DNA from: Bullera alba | Taxonomy: Eukaryota; Basidiomycota; Tremellomycetes; Tremellales; Bulleraceae | Reading direction: 5' to 3' | DNA: 64,000 bases | NCBI GenBank assembly: GCA_001600095.1 | Contig: BCIX01000001.1 | Span: forward strand, 7,279,198 to 7,343,197 | Shown: positions 19,072 through 26,442 of the stretch, piece by piece | Layout of the letters: each line of letters begins with the position of its first letter | Numbering within the stretch: the first letter of the stretch is position 1 | Program-made: the position numbers and the translations under genes | Notes under the pieces: generated by a model | The model's database searches: none | The model's input: only the letters and a program-made list of their open reading frames with translations | Told to the model about the DNA's origin: nothing

Positions 19072-22000
19072 CTACGTGCTCACACACTTGAACGTCTTGT
19101 ACACCTTCCAGCTGGTGACCCTCATTCCAACTCCTATCGCAACCAGCAAGCTGAGATCGACGATGAGCAGCGTCACCCCTGCCAGCATGAACCTCGGCGC
19201 AAACACCTTCCAAACCATCAAATGTCGCCTCAACCAGGCTGCACACACTGCGCTGGAAAGGGTGATGATCGTGTGGTAGATGCTGAAAGCGATGCACAGC
19301 TGGACGGTATGTGCCAAAAGCGGTATAGTCCCCGAAGGCCTCGGTGAGATGTTCCAAATAGCCAGCAGGGGCACCGCCAGCGCCGTCAGGGCTATCGGAC
19401 CCCAAGTGTTGACCACGACTAGCAGCGGGGAGAACGGGTAGGTGACGGTGGTGAACCCGACGAAAGCGGCTTTCCACTGGATCGACGTGAGAACAGCTTG
19501 GTGACCGGTCGCAAAGAAGCCCAAGAATCCAAGCATAGCCAGCGGCGTGACGTCGGTGAAAGTGGGTCGGACGATCTTGGCCGAGGGGCCGGTATTGTCC
19601 AGACCGTCGAATCCCCCTGGTCCACCTTGCGACTGAGACTGGGCAAAGGACGACGTCATGAGAATAGCGTCCCTCTGGCTATCCGTGACCTCGAGATGAG
19701 TGACGGTGATGATGAGCATGGCCGAGAGTGCGAGCTGGGCCATTGGCTGAGAGACAAGGTGGACGAGTGTATATGGGATCAAGAGGAAGATGAGGTATGT
19801 CGACCCATAAGCATTGGCGAATCCAAAGACCGTGACTGCTTTCTGATCTCCCGTCTGGTCGGGGTCCCGTTTGACTTGAATGCACAATCCGCTGAATGCC
19901 CATAGATATGGCAAGAGTAGGAGGATTGAGCCAAAAGACAGACGAGCCAACCATAGCCTGAGGCCATTGACAAACGGCACTCGATCCGCCTGCAGACCTT
20001 CCCAAGACTCCAACCACTCTAGGATCCAGTACACCGCGTTGAGGACCATGGTACCTCTCCAGGCTTTGCCGAGGAACCCGGGCGCTGGACCGGCCAAAGA
20101 CTTTGAAAAGTCCAGCAACATGCCAATTGCTCTTGGGAGGTGTAGCGCAACGACGAGAATGGCACCGAGGGCGTAAGGCGATGCGGTGGGAGTGGACCCG
20201 CTGTAGAACGTAACGTGGCAGTAGGGCTGTTGCTCCTCTCTGCACACGGTGATACTGCCAATCAAGCGGACTAATCCCATGATCAGGCATGATCCCCCGG
20301 CAATGGTCCATCGCATCGACGATGTAGGTGCCGTTGGCGCTTTGAACAGGTGTATCAGGGGGATAGTGTTGAGAAGAAAGATCATCATCCGGTCTTCCCA
20401 CATGACAAACGAGTTGGAGGCGAATGCGATCGTGTGAAAGAACAGCATGATGGGACCTATGGCCCTCTGGATCGGCCATTGCGTTCGGTCCGGTAGGCTG
20501 ATCTGCACCAAGAGAGGGAGTATGAGGAATAACTCGGAGACGAGTGCAAAGGCGACGGCGGAGACTTTGACGGCGGTGATCAGGTTTTTGGTGAGAACAG
20601 CGGTGGTAATGGCTGAGAGTGCGCCGGCACCGAGGGACGGCAGGAGTAGCGTGTCGATAGCCAGCCGAACATAGACGTCCCAATTTGGCCCATTATTGCG
20701 GACCGCAATGTACAGGGCAATCAAGGAGGGCACACTGAGCGCTAGCACCAAAATACCGGTAAGGATCAATGGGACCGAAAACTGCGCCCACAGTGCTCGC
20801 AAGTTTGCCAAAGCGGTTAATGCGACTTTGCGGTGTAGTTTGATCGAGAGCCGCTGTGCTTGTTCTGAAGTCCCGTCGATTGTCTCGCCCAATTCCGTGG
20901 CTAGCCATTCGACCCAGATCTCCTTTGCCGACTCCCCCTCGAGAGCCAAACTAGCTGTAAACTCTGCGGCATCGGAAGCCCGTTGCCAGAGAGGCAGTAA
21001 CGCCCGCTCGATATCCCTGTCTCCGTACTCTTCGACATAGCGCATGATCTGCTCGGCGTTGACCTTGACGGCGTCGTCGAGCAGGGTGAGGTTTGATGCA
21101 AAGCACTGAGGAATTGCCAGGCCGAGGTTGTTGAACGGGATCGGAATGCCAAGTAGCAATGACAGGGTGGGCACCAGGTCGATTTGGTTGACGTGCCGGA
21201 GAGGAATGTCGGTCCCTGGAAACGCGTACATTGGCCAATCGCGCACTAGCTTGGTATCGGGAGGTGCAATTCCCGTAAGTGATGGCCCCTTGGAGTATAG
21301 CCATAGCGCCGCCGCGGTTTCCAGCTCTGAATCACCCCCATGATTGCCTTTACTATCCATCCCGTGGTCTCCCAACACCACGAGCAGAGTCTCATCGTCC
21401 AGCCTCTCCACGACATCGCGCAAGACTTGGTCCATCTGACTCAATTTGGCCTTCATCGTATCCCTCTCCGGACCGACCCTATGGCCTACATGATCCACTC
21501 CGAGGAAATGGCCGATAAGCACGTCCCACTGGGTTTGGTTCTCCGGCGCGAGGTGGGGGAACAAATGCTCAACAACTCCATTATCCACCGTGTGTAGATC
21601 CTCCACGTTGAACGAGTCGAACGGGTGTGACTGGTGAAAGCTCGCCGGGAATAGGTTCACCCAAGTATCGTCTCCCATAAAAACAACTCTCTTATCCGCC
21701 GCAACCAGCTGCGATATCCACGAGTCCTCCTCAATGGCGGTAGAAGCAAAGTTTGCGCCGGCGTCGATAAACGTAGGTAATGATCCGGTGGTGATACCCT
21801 TGATCCTCTGCATGGTGGTCGTAGGCGGATCCGAGTAGGTATTGAAGATGAGCGACCTCGAGGGGTCTTTCGCCCAGAGCTCTGCGGGGAGGGTGAGTAT
21901 TCCATGGTGATTTGGCGAAGCTGGTTCTGGGTGGTGCGGTGAGATAAAGTCTGTCCGTAGAGCGTCTATGATGAGCACCACGGCCTTTTTGTGCGTCGCA

Positions 22001-22272
22001 GGGATGATCGGTGGTGATGAGAGAGAGTACGGAGGTGTGACGGTAGGTATTGCCATTCGAGAGAGGAGAAACCCTCGCGTAAAGGTGTATAGACCGGTAA
22101 GGTGGATGGACGTGATGTAGAGGAGGAGCAGGACGGCCAGGTTTGCCTTGGAGACGTTCCGCAGCCACCGAGTCCGGATATCCTCGACCTTCATCACTTT
22201 TGGTTTGGGCGCTGACGTTGCGGTGGGAGCGGCAGTGGGCGCAGCATTGCTGCTCGCCTTTTTCTGGGGCAT
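19072..22272 (-). CDS. GPI13: GPI ethanolamine phosphate transferase 3 (PIG-O)
   Basis: A 1,066-residue protein with no coding intron, striking among such intron-rich neighbours. It adds ethanolamine phosphate to the third mannose of the GPI precursor in the ER lumen, just before transfer to proteins. After a cytosolic leader and one helix (LAVLLLLYITSIHLTGLYTF) comes the alkaline-phosphatase-like domain. It has VVLIIDALRTDF, the Thr nucleophile region YSDPPTTTMQRIKG, GDDTWVNLFP, GHFLGVDHVGHRVGP and LGDHGMDSKGNHGG with the metal-binding Asp/His residues. The second half is a long run of membrane helices, as in PIG-O. The ATG at 22272 (MPQKKASSN) follows a likely 5'-UTR intron (acceptor CTGACCTAG). 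It is divergent from the CLPTM1-family gene. Confidence 0.92.
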   Translation of the reverse strand: MPQKKASSNAAPTAAPTATSAPKPKVMKVEDIRTRWLRNVSKANLAVLLLLYITSIHLTGLYTFTRGFLLSRMAIPTVTPPYSLSSPPIIPATHKKAVVLIIDALRTDFISPHHPEPASPNHHGILTLPAELWAKDPSRSLIFNTYSDPPTTTMQRIKGITTGSLPTFIDAGANFASTAIEEDSWISQLVAADKRVVFMGDDTWVNLFPASFHQSHPFDSFNVEDLHTVDNGVVEHLFPHLAPENQTQWDVLIGHFLGVDHVGHRVGPERDTMKAKLSQMDQVLRDVVERLDDETLLVVLGDHGMDSKGNHGGDSELETAAALWLYSKGPSLTGIAPPDTKLVRDWPMYAFPGTDIPLRHVNQIDLVPTLSLLLGIPIPFNNLGLAIPQCFASNLTLLDDAVKVNAEQIMRYVEEYGDRDIERALLPLWQRASDAAEFTASLALEGESAKEIWVEWLATELGETIDGTSEQAQRLSIKLHRKVALTALANLRALWAQFSVPLILTGILVLALSVPSLIALYIAVRNNGPNWDVYVRLAIDTLLLPSLGAGALSAITTAVLTKNLITAVKVSAVAFALVSELFLILPLLVQISLPDRTQWPIQRAIGPIMLFFHTIAFASNSFVMWEDRMMIFLLNTIPLIHLFKAPTAPTSSMRWTIAGGSCLIMGLVRLIGSITVCREEQQPYCHVTFYSGSTPTASPYALGAILVVALHLPRAIGMLLDFSKSLAGPAPGFLGKAWRGTMVLNAVYWILEWLESWEGLQADRVPFVNGLRLWLARLSFGSILLLLPYLWAFSGLCIQVKRDPDQTGDQKAVTVFGFANAYGSTYLIFLLIPYTLVHLVSQPMAQLALSAMLIITVTHLEVTDSQRDAILMTSSFAQSQSQGGPGGFDGLDNTGPSAKIVRPTFTDVTPLAMLGFLGFFATGHQAVLTSIQWKAAFVGFTTVTYPFSPLLVVVNTWGPIALTALAVPLLAIWNISPRPSGTIPLLAHTVQLCIAFSIYHTIITLSSAVCAAWLRRHLMVWKVFAPRFMLAGVTLLIVDLSLLVAIGVGMRVTSWKVYKTFKCVST

Positions 22273-22661: not shown

Positions 22662-25027
22662 ATGTCGCAAGCTCGCGCGGTGGCGCCAGCTGGAGCGGCA
22701 GCTGGACCCGCCCAGGATGACAGCATGTTTGGCAAGATGAAGCCGATCCTTCGCTCGGTCATGATCTTCCTGGTTATCCAAAATGGTAAGTGTGCAGAGT
22801 GCAAGTCAGCGTCGGTGCTGATCTCGCGATACAGGAATGAAATACGGAATGAACTACGTAAGTCAGCTACCCGACATTATAAGCATGGAGCTGACCGGTA
22901 TCAGCTTGGCATGGGCAGCACACCCGAAACAGTATCCCACACCCCCAACCCAAACGCTCCATCGGACGCCTCTGCCGTCGTGCCAAAGACTGGCGTGGAC
23001 ATTGCTCAACCCGCCTGGCCGTTGGGAACGAAATTGTCCATGCTGTTCTACCCATCCACCTCTGAGACTCCCGAGCAGAAGACTGAAGACCCCTTGTTCG
23101 TCTGGGACGACTTGACCTATGGTGATTGGAAGGACACACGGGATACCGAGCTCATGCTCGATGTCCCCGAGTCGGTCAAGAATCACAACGGGACTTGGTT
23201 CATGGACATCCTCCTCGTCAAGGGAGGAGGAAGCACTCTTGCTGGTAAAGGCGAGGGCGATGTCGCTCTCTACCGAAAGCGTGAGTCTCCAGAAGAGAGC
23301 TGAGCTAATCGGTATAGAACTCACCAGGTTCCTACCCAAGAAACGAGTGAGAAAGGAGAAGAAGCTCATTGGCAACGAAGAGGACGTCGAGGACGAACCT
23401 GAAGCACCAGAGCCTGCTCAACAAATCGTCGCTCATTGGTCCAACAACCTCACTCTTGCACTCATCTCCGATGGCAAACCCGTCAACCTCGCCCAACTAG
23501 CTCCACCCACCGCACCCTTCTTCATCGTCGCTCCGTCCCCGGCAGAATCCACCACCAAGCACTACTACCCCGTCCTGTTCCCAAACGACTTCTGGGTCCT
23601 CCGAGAGTCCCTCGTGACGATCAACGAGACGACCTCGCAGCTTCCCTTGAGAGTGACCTACTCGGCTCTCGGCGCGCTCAAATTCCAAATGTACGCGACC
23701 ATGACCCAGTCCATGGATCAAGCTGCCAATAGCCAGGGCACGGGCGCGGAGATGGACGAAGTCAAGCGAATGTTCATGGAGACCAGCCCCTGGTTGCTCA
23801 TCACCACAGCGTTGGTCACGATTTTGCACACGCTGTTCGAGTTTCTGGCCTTTTCCAGCGATATCGGCCATTGGAGGAAAAAGGACAAGGATCTCGTCGG
23901 AGTTTCCGTCAATACGATCTTGACGAATTGTTTCGTTCAATTGGTCATCCTGCTTTACCTCCACGATAGCTCCGAGCAGACGAGTTTCATGATCTTGTTC
24001 GGTCAAGGAATGTAGGTCAAGTGACTTGGGATGGAAGCTGATAATCAGGGGCCTGTTGATCGAAGCGTGGAAAATCACTCAGGGTGAGTTTACACAACTA
24101 ACCAAGCTGAGCTTTAGTCGTCAACATCAGAGTGCGGGAAGCACCCGGAACGCTTATCGGCTATCAGGTCACTTTCGAGGGTGAGTCCGGGCAGTCCGGA
24201 TGGGTCTGACTCTTTTAGACAAGAAGGTCCTCAGTGAGGACGAGAAGAAAACGCAAGAGTACGACAGACTTGCTTTCAGACTCGTGTCGTACTTTGCCAT
24301 GCCCGCTCTGGCCGGGTACACGGTGTACTCGCTCCTATACGAGTGAGCTACTTCATTCTCCCAGAGGCCAATACAGCTCACTCTTATCTCAGGACCCACC
24401 GGGGGTGGTATTCGTTCATCGTGACGACGCTCGCTCAGGCCATCTACATGTTTGGCTTTGTCCAGCTTGTCCCACAGCTTATCATCAACTACAAGCTGAA
24501 GAGTGTTGCGCACATGCCGTGAGTGAATTTGCGGGTTATGAGATCAGTACTGACCATGAGTAGGATGAAAGCGATGATGTACAAGACACGTGAGCTGACT
24601 AGCTTTGATGTTTGAGCTTAGCTGACTCTTTCTAGTGTCCACTGTTGTCGATGATTTCTTGTGAGTACCTTGATAGTGCAGATGAGATTGGGCTGACATT
24701 CCACAGCGGTTCGCACCCTCTTTTCCAGATTTGACCGGCTGATACTGACCTTCCTTAGCGTTCTGCATCAGGATGCCATGGTTGCACAGGTGAGCTGCCT
24801 CTGGACCGATGTTAGCTCGCACTGACACACCCAGACTCGCGTGCTTCCGAGACGACGTCGTGTTCGTCGTCCTCCTCTACCAGCGATGGATCTACAGAGT
24901 CGATTACTCCCGAGTCAACGAGTACGGCCAAGTGGTCGAGGGCAAGGTCGAGCCCGTTGGCGAGGGTGACAATGCCGATGAAAAGGTCGTCAAAGCGCTC
25001 AAGGGCGAGACCAAGAAGAACAAGTAG
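22662..25027 (+). CDS. CLPTM1-family ER membrane protein (putative lipid scramblase)
   Basis: About 600 residues in at least a dozen exons. The start is MSQARAVAPAG at 22662. The leader helix VMIFLVIQNGMKYGMNY spans a 23-nt exon (22835-22857). A luminal beta-rich domain follows (NHNGTWFMDILLVKGGG, LTRFLPKKRVRKEKKLIG, HYYPVLFPNDFWVLRESL). Helices then carry family hallmarks: SDIGHWRKKDKDLVGVSVNT, IGYQVTFEDKKVLSEDE, YDRLAFRLVSYF, PQLIINYKLKSVAHMPMKA, and LACFRDDVVFVVLLYQRWIY with VDYSRVNEYG. Human CLPTM1L is reported to scramble glucosaminyl-PI in GPI synthesis and CLPTM1 affects receptor traffic; function here is inferred. Keeping the conserved DDFFAFCIRMPWLHR in frame seems to need a 2-nt exon at 24707-24708. 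The stop lies 48 bp from that of CNS1. Confidence 0.88.
24707..24708 (+). other. Candidate 2-nt microexon (CG) of the CLPTM1-family gene
   Basis: The upstream exon ends ...GAT GAT TTC TT at 24660 and the downstream exon starts CG TTC TGC ATC at 24759. A direct join breaks the frame of everything downstream. The intervening 98 nt divides into two GT-AG introns (24661-24706 and 24709-24758), each with a CTGAC branch site 10 or so bases before the AG. Between them lies CG, giving TTC GCG TTC and the family motif F-A-F. The donor of the second intron, GTTCGC, is weak. The alternative is one 111-nt intron to the AG at 24771, which stays in frame but deletes five conserved residues. Confidence 0.55.
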
Positions 25028-25075: not shown

Positions 25076-26442
25076 CTACGATTTGTCTTGATCCCTTTTC
25101 CGCTTGTACTCCTCTATCCACTTTTTCTCCTGTTCGCCCTTGACCAAGACGATAAAGCTGAGCAGACCGTCGCGCAGCACCACACCGTCCACTTTACCGT
25201 CGTCTAGCGTCTTGATGGCTTTCTGGATGACCTCTCGCAGAGTCAACTCCCTGCCGGCTTTCAACGACCGCCTGTGCGCCGTTTCGAGGTATACCACGAG
25301 ATTTGGCCCGCAGTACTCCCGCTTAGTGTCCCAATCCGCCCAGCCTGACGATGCCGAGGGGGACGGAGGGAACATGACGTTGATGTGATCTGACAGTGTG
25401 GTGTTCTCGTCGAAATGGGTAATGAGGTCGGATTGGGAGTACGTAGGGTAGAGCAAGAAGACGGGATATATGAGCGGAGCGTGGGGTGGAGGAGGTGTCC
25501 ACGGCTCTACTGATGCACTCCCAGGAGGGGTGTACAGGGGTGGATCAACGGGAAGTGACTCCGGGTCAAAGTGCGGTGGATGGGGATTGTCGGGTGGACT
25601 GGGAGTGTTGACGACCACCAACCCTCGAGACTAGAGTCATTCAGTTCTCGTTCATATTGGAGACGCTGGACCCACCTGTATAGCCCGTTTCAAGGCGATT
25701 TTGCCCAAAGTCGTCCGCCTCTCCCTCTCTCTACGCTCCTCCACCGTTCTCTGACCCTTTTCCACATCCTCGCCCAGCTTTTTCCACTCGGGCTTGTTCT
25801 CCTCGCCTTTCATCTCCCTGCCTCGCTTGACGACATCCCTGGCTTCGTCCCATCGCTCAAGGCAGATGAGCGCCTGTCCCGATCGATAGAGCGATTTCAC
25901 AGGTGGAACCTTGCCCGCTTTGATGCTGAGGGCGATGATGGCGCCAGTGTCCTTGAGTGTGGCTCGGTAGTTTTTCAATGCCAAGTTGGCTGCCGCTCGA
26001 TTGTTTAGTAATGAGATCCGAAGGTCAAAGTCGACCGGGCCCGCCGTGACACCTTGAGTGTATGCCTCTACTGCCTCTTTGTACGTCTTTTGCGAGTAAA
26101 GCTCGTTTCCGTGGTTCTTGAAGTTCATCGCGACCTCTGCCAAACTCAGCAAGCTGTCAACTGGAGATTAATGGAATGCGACCCACCGTCACCCTCTCCT
26201 TCAAAGACCAAGCTTCTAAGCGCTTCCAGAACATCGTTGGTCTCTCCATCCTTAGGCGTCTCACGCATGAACAGAGGCGTCTCGTCAAGGACCTTTTGAA
26301 ACTCTTCATAGGTGACCTCTTTCTTGGTAAACCTCGAAGGTCCGGCGCTGTTGTCCGGCATGGCGTCAATCACCTTTTCCAAGGACACCTCTAGAGGTTC
26401 TTCCACCTCTGGTTCGTTGATCACTTCGATTTTCGAAGGCAT
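25076..26442 (-). CDS. CNS1: Hsp90 co-chaperone, TPR protein of the Cns1/TTC4 family
   Basis: About 425 residues in three coding exons, starting MPSKIEVINEP at 26442. The N-terminal region has VTYEEFQKVLDETPLFMRETP, typical of TTC4/Cns1. The TPR domain follows at about residues 90-200: AMNFKNHGNELYSQKTYKEAVEAYTQGV, then RISLLNNRAAANLALKNYRATLKDTGAII and KSLYRSGQALICLERWDEARDVV. The Lys/Asn positions of the carboxylate clamp that grips the EEVD tail of Hsp90/Hsp70 are visible (KNHGN, NNRA). A charged helix leads to the C-terminal wheel domain (IYPVFLLYPTYSQSDLITHFDENTTLSDHINVMF, then LTLREVIQKAIKTLDDGKVDGVVL...LSFIVLVKGE). Cns1 is essential in yeast and supports Hsp90 clients and eEF2 folding. 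It is divergent from TGL2. Confidence 0.87.

Follow-up and report, generated by a model that had tools for sequence, protein, structure and literature searches.

Two introns with complete splice signals lie next to each other in a CLPTM1-family gene of Bullera alba and leave only the dinucleotide CG between them, which raises the question whether these two bases are a coding exon and, if so, how such an exon could be spliced. The gene was analyzed in a stretch of 64,000 nucleotides (the window), which is part of contig C1 of the genome; for genome-wide searches 19.4 Mb in 7 contigs were scanned.

The CLPTM1-family gene and its two-base joint

The gene model was built by hand and contains 12 introns, all of which (12/12) are GT-AG, with an unbroken reading frame (Table 1). 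The encoded protein of 613 aa, a conserved membrane protein, matches the Pfam family CLPTM1 (PF05602) with 433.2 bits and an E-value of 1.4e-129, which clears the curated cut-off of 22 bits, and it belongs to the CLPTM1 family. Its best named relatives are from Tremella, Kwoniella, Cryptococcus and Naematelia. In the whole genome, the family was identified at one locus only by a best-candidate search, and the gene is apparently single-copy. No solved structure for the family was found by sequence search at E 0.001.

On the reverse strand of the window, positions 19072-22272 contain an unbroken frame of 1066 aa that is GPI ethanolamine phosphate transferase-like (Phosphodiest, PIGO_PIGG). This gene is divergent from the CLPTM1 gene, with ∼390 bases between the start codons. 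Given this arrangement, and since CLPTM1L is termed an ER lipid scramblase in one abstract, it is a possibility that both genes are co-regulated and take part together in lipid or GPI work. A Cns1/TTC4-like gene (25076-26152, reverse strand; Wheel domain with E 4e-31, TPR matches under the cut-off) converges on the CLPTM1 gene, with ∼50 bases between the stop codons.

Table 1. Predicted features of the two hand-built gene models; coordinates refer to the window unless contig C3 is given.
Feature	Coordinates	Strand	Description
CLPTM1-family gene	22662..25027	+	Start to stop codon, 13 exons, 613 aa
Exon 10	24636..24660	+	25 nt, end ...GAT GAT TTC TT
Intron 10	24661..24706	+	46 nt, GTGAGT...CTGAC...CACAG; tail GGGCTGACATTCCACAG; after CTGAC: ATTCCACAG
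Exon 11	24707..24708	+	2 nt, CG
Intron 11	24709..24758	+	50 nt, GTTCGC...CTGAC, TTAG acceptor; tail ATACTGACCTTCCTTAG; after CTGAC: CTTCCTTAG
Exon 12	24759..24789	+	31 nt, CG TTC TGC ATC AGG ATG CCA TGG TTG CAC AG; start CGTTCTGC
Intron 12	24790..24834	+	45 nt
Exon 13	24835..25027	+	Encodes LACFRDDVVF...QRWIYRV and stop
Permease exon AT	C3:329888-329889	-	2 nt
Permease exon TGTCATTTACA	C3:329812-329822	-	11 nt
Permease exon TTCT	C3:329758-329761	-	4 nt

The joint had been noticed in a sequence-only reading, and when both introns and the CG were re-read from the sequence, the coordinates given there proved to be exact. Introns 10 and 11 are both GT-AG, in each of them CTGAC ends 9 nt before the 3′ end, and their lengths match those of the other ten introns of the gene (34-50 nt). 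Their pyrimidine tracts are short and mixed. As is characteristic for a microexon, complete introns with canonical borders are present on both sides and the CG is required by the frame and by the conserved protein. Intron 11 starts with GTTCGC and carries a CTGAC site, and is thus not of the U12 type, whose donors are such as GTATCC or ATATCC.

With CG included, the C completes TTC (Phe) and the G opens GCG (Ala), and the sequence TTC GCG TTC TGC yields F-A-F, which fits the conserved residues of the relatives; the protein reads DDFFAFCIRMPWLHRLACFRDDVVF...QRWIYRV. Also the claim that the CG is needed holds. When it is skipped, the frame shifts, and the result is a protein of 593 aa in which the conserved end is replaced by a scrambled tail. 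Retention of intron 11 results in an early stop after 547 aa, and retention of intron 10 in ...LSTVVDDFL followed by a stop (539 aa).

Splice paths through 24640-24776 were enumerated, using introns with GT-AG, GC-AG or AT-AC borders and a minimum length of 25 nt, and were kept only if the downstream MPWLH frame was preserved without a stop. This resulted in 3 single-intron and 28 two-intron in-frame paths. The exact peptide LSTVVDDFFAFCIRMPWLH was obtained from only one of the 28 two-intron paths, that with the 2-nt exon and two GT-AG introns (score 108), and the runner-up (score 91) uses a GC donor. Of the single-intron paths, two use AT-AC borders (scores 86 and 71) and the third is a 111-nt GT-AG intron. 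When any border dinucleotides were allowed, the best single deletions removed 96 nt between non-canonical borders. Readings with a single intron cause a frameshift, drop five conserved residues, or require borders other than GT-AG. Based on the unique path and on homology, 24707-24708 is predicted, with a probability of about 0.9, to be a coding exon of two nucleotides.

This reading was weighed against several others. One intron of 98 nt (24661-24758), combined with a 2-base assembly error or a real loss of two bases just past the acceptor, would be in line with the weak second donor, and two suitable extra bases after 24758 would restore the frame. However, such an intron would be about twice as long as the others in this gene, and no frame error is found elsewhere in the gene model. 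Furthermore, the interior of the region was shuffled 20,000 times with dinucleotides preserved, while GTGAGT at the outer donor and the last 14 nt (branch site, acceptor) were kept fixed. Any in-frame exon of 0-12 nt appeared in 3494/20,000 shuffles and the exact peptide in 74/20,000, but an internal acceptor and GT around a short exon giving the right peptide, together with a correctly placed branch-like site, arose by chance in only 12/20,000. The arrangement of the 2-nt exon exceeds chance, and the 98-nt intron is very unlikely. The in-frame intron of 111 nt (24661-24771) does exist, as the sequence-only reading had pointed out for a junction from 24660 to 24772. It has a strong donor and a CAG acceptor, keeps the frame and is the only in-frame GT-AG single-intron path, but it is longer than every other intron of the gene. 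The resulting protein, with DDFLMPWLH, lacks five residues in a segment that has the same spacing in 119 of the 120 relatives listed, and the alignment score is 59 compared to 108 for the 2-nt exon, which makes this intron highly improbable.

Frame and length are also preserved by single introns with other borders, namely AT-AC at 24654-24749 (DASLAF; score 86 of 108) and the 96-nt introns GT-TT at 24661-24756 and GA-AG at 24663-24758 (DDFLAF and DDFLSF; scores 102 and 99). The gene's other introns never have such borders, however, and L would replace the F that is present at this position in 118 of the 119 readable relatives among the 120 matches listed, so these introns are scarcely credible. 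A chance close to negligible is given to a nested stwintron, in which a splice signal of the external intron is split by an internal one, a stwintron-like arrangement having been offered in the sequence-only reading. Stwintrons are described as well documented in fungi, and, as is proposed for the CLPTM1 pair, they are adjacent fungal introns removed in consecutive reactions (PMC6616335, PMC5639578). In a stwintron as presented there, one intron lies within a splice signal of the other, whereas donor, branch site and acceptor are whole in both CLPTM1 introns and the CG between them is required in the mRNA for the frame and for Phe-Ala. With all splice signals intact and two bases retained between the introns, the pair is not a stwintron, and this part of the proposal is dropped in favor of the 2-nt exon.

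Proteins of relatives and origin of intron 11

The residues at the joint were compared with 120 relatives, the matches listed of 2198 in a protein search. A 38-residue stretch over the joint, MKAMMYKTLSTVVDDFFAFCIRMPWLHRLACFRDDVVF, is identical in 13 of these 120 (nine Kwoniella, two Cryptococcus, one Tremella and one Naematelia), and the 20-mer LSTVVDDFFAFCIRMPWLHR over the joint is identical in 18 of them. Of the 119 readable relatives, 118 have F at the residue completed by the C of CG, and at the next residue, whose codon starts with the G, 115 have A and 4 have S. A second set comprised shorter CLPTM1 fragments (120 matches listed of 448). Among these matches F was found in 114 of the 115 that could be pattern-matched, of 119, and no near-identical protein was present among the 120 listed of 448, the top identity being 87%. 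The 120th relative of the first set is P0029 from Tremellales sp. Uapishka_1, for which the deposited CLPTM1 model is garbled exactly at the joint. It looks as if intron 9 is retained in this model, and Tremellales sp. Uapishka_1 may also have an unusual gene structure at this place.

Some of the proteins end close to the introns. Three of the 239 relatives in the listed matches of both searches (P0318, P0322, P0323) end with ...STVVDDFL, the peptide that results from reading into intron 10. Four others of the 239 (P0032, P0035, P0041, P0270) read through DDFFAFC(I/V)RMPWLHR and end at most 15 residues after LHR, at or just beyond the position of intron 12, where P0002 has additional residues. 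The simplest reading would be that the truncated relatives are frames read from genomic contigs without splicing. An intron at position 10 would then be present in some relatives, others would have neither intron 10 nor intron 11, and intron 12 appears to be shared. Since the protein ends point to intron 10 in some relatives and to neither intron in others, intron 11 is the likely newcomer, and it was probably gained two bases away from an older intron at position 10.

Other origins of intron 11 were considered as well. A 63-base query over intron 11 matched only itself, no second copy was found in the genome, and a repeated or mobile intron was rejected. The 3′ ends of introns 10 and 11 can be aligned (CTGAC-TTCC-AGCG-TTC-GCA) and rank first or second, depending on the scheme, of the 66 intron-end pairs of the gene; this likeness is mostly due to the shared splice signals. 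With two scoring schemes, 58 and 108 of 1000 shuffle pairs scored as high, and tandem duplication was rejected as the source of the two introns; it is a weak idea.

The weak second donor and the order of splicing

The sequence-only reading had called the second donor weak, and this could be confirmed with two measures. Using a leave-one-out matrix, GTTCGC scored -2.0 bits, the lowest of 27 donors (next lowest 3.6), in a comparison of the 12 donors of the CLPTM1-family gene with 15 of a permease gene (see below), which leans to good donors because GT donors were used in the manual placement of the permease introns. The predicted pairing with the 5′ end of U1 was -2.8 kcal/mol for intron 11, the poorest of all 12 introns of the gene, compared to -4.6 to -11.7 kcal/mol for the remaining 11. 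The predicted pairing is equal before and after removal of intron 10. Intron 11 keeps a G at +5, the CTGAC site and the usual length. The weak donor is the main point against the 2-nt exon and also the most interesting feature of the joint.

For the 2-nt exon, it is proposed that the pre-mRNA would be spliced by intron definition in two reactions, one after the other. The footprint of U1 on a donor extends from about -3 to +6. On the donor of intron 11 it would occupy 24706-24714 and reach into the intron 10 acceptor (24705-24706), covering its final G, and therefore simultaneous use of this acceptor and of the donor of intron 11 is very unlikely. A two-base exon is an implausible unit for exon definition. 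Since intron 10 has a strong donor and is transcribed first, it would be expected to leave first, which places TTCTTCG directly in front of GTTCGC, and removal of intron 11 would then give TTC GCG TTC. Removal of the strong-donor intron 10 before the weak-donor intron 11 is most likely the order, and the predicted joint in the mRNA is ...GATTTCTT-CG-CGTTCTGCATC. Successive intron-defined removal, the other part of the earlier proposal, is most likely the best mechanism for this joint.

If intron 11 were slow, an unspliced product with an early stop would arise. A more far-reaching idea is that exons of 2-6 nt are ordinary in this fungus, that splicing of the CLPTM1 pair is obligatorily ordered, with the donor of intron 11 too weak until intron 10 is gone, and that the 2-nt exon with its slow intron 11 could be a checkpoint of expression, since retention of this intron stops the protein after 547 aa. 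This combination is regarded as doubtful.

Tiny exons in the same genome and in other organisms

The genome was scanned for splice motifs that enclose very small exons. The bare motif CTGAC-N(3-14)-YAG-NN-GTNNGY was found at 154 sites, compared to 206 for the reversed control, and when 30 of the 154 sites were tested for open reading frames, 2/30 could be arranged with two plausible introns. The motif CTGAC-N(3-14)-YAG-N(1-6)-GTRAGT gave 56 sites compared to 91, and a third motif scan 32 compared to 187. As all three scans (3/3) remained below their reversed controls, a genome-wide excess of tiny exons was rejected. Since the bare motif is common, the CG exon is accepted on frame and homology and not on the splice motif. 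The reading-frame test covered all 56 loci of the GTRAGT scan (59 matches), and the DNA was read for L035, L007, L019, L043, L052 and L030.

L035, found by the GTRAGT scan on the reverse strand of contig C3, is a gene for a major-facilitator permease. In its model, a single splice path placed by hand, the tiny exons (Table 1) are consecutive (C3:329758-329889) and lie between introns of 48, 65, 50 and 52 nt. They would encode DLRFSILIVIYILNYIDRNN, which is identical over the stretch to P0122 of Cryptococcus depauperatus. Both donors adjoining the 2-nt exon are GTGAGT. The 10-residue spacing is shared by 49/49 pattern-matched relatives, with 71 of the 120 listed unmatched; of the unmatched relatives displayed, some have other residues at normal spacing and in some the start is unrelated or missing. 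The downstream exons equal P0240 at 178/178 shared residues after correction of the intron 8 acceptor, which P0240 itself had prompted. P0240 is a protein of 380 aa from a JGI contig of 1,308 bases, which has no room for the introns of the model, and this suggests that spliced transcript data from this species or a nearly identical one are present at JGI. Five Kwoniella permease models (P0124, P0128, P0130, P0132, P0133) are altered or garbled at the place of the tiny exons, which suggests that deposited protein models of relatives go wrong at such places. At L019:1517-1522, in what is presumably a gene for a GH1 beta-glucosidase, the 6-nt exon CTGGTC is needed to give FAWSLMDNFEWASG. Judged from these models, very small exons seem to be spliced more than once in this genome, and the permease gene, as modeled, supports the 2-nt exon of the CLPTM1-family gene as a second case.

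Further candidates were observed at other loci. At L007 (1517-1519, reverse strand) a candidate 3-nt exon, TCT, lies between two GTGAGT introns and the frame cannot decide on it. L030 contains a candidate 1-nt exon, and L043, L044 and L052 are additional candidates, all of them known as open frames alone.

The sequence-only reading had placed a 2-nt exon near the physical limit of exon definition. This is overstated, because exons of 1 nt are already published (PMC4674806, PMC8831610, PMC12940212), and the CG exon is less surprising than first claimed, since smaller exons are known. In Arabidopsis APC11, a constitutive coding exon of 1 nt between two introns was tested with reporter constructs, and its authors favor intron definition, with the introns removed one after the other, over exon definition; removal of the second intron before the first, in a potato gene, is mentioned there as well (PMC4674806). 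The CLPTM1 case is likewise a predicted ultra-short coding exon between two introns, but it is 2 nt long, comes from a basidiomycete, has a weak downstream donor and is known from sequence alone. APC11 and VPS55 of plants are reported to contain 1-nt microexons conserved across land plants and, like the CLPTM1 exon, very small and missed by genome annotation; the donors in VPS55 are described as conserved GTRAGT, unlike the GTTCGC found here (PMC8831610).

A fungal parallel is the 1-nt exon of Fusarium CYP621A, reported in many orthologues and confirmed by reads, in a source that also mentions exons of 2-5 bp in Arabidopsis, Drosophila and humans (PMC12940212). As for the CLPTM1 joint, this fungal exon was inferred from a phase misfit and a conserved motif that needs the missing base, but it belongs to an ascomycete P450 with support from orthologues and reads, whereas the CLPTM1 exon is read from one genome. 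The bglA genes of basidiomycetous yeasts share with the CLPTM1 case intron richness, short introns and tiny exons. Their shortest exons, determined against cDNA, are 5 and 6 bp, and in contrast to the CLPTM1 case none of those in the table consulted goes down to 2 nt (PMC9142197). In the literature searched, which left most subscription journals outside its coverage, no report of a 2-nt fungal exon and none of microexons in Tremellales was found. In excerpts of two Cryptococcus annotation papers (PMC8022950, PMC3990503), microexon search is mentioned only as an aligner setting.

In view of the published 1-nt exons (APC11, VPS55, CYP621A), the predicted 2-nt CG exon would join the known ultra-short exons. 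Exons of one or two bases probe the minimum exon that is needed by the spliceosome, and they are missed by gene-finding programs. Flanked by an intron with a strong donor and one with a very weak donor, the predicted 2-nt exon of this conserved gene makes the CLPTM1 joint a clean, testable natural substrate, at which the order in which two overlapping splice sites are used can be addressed.
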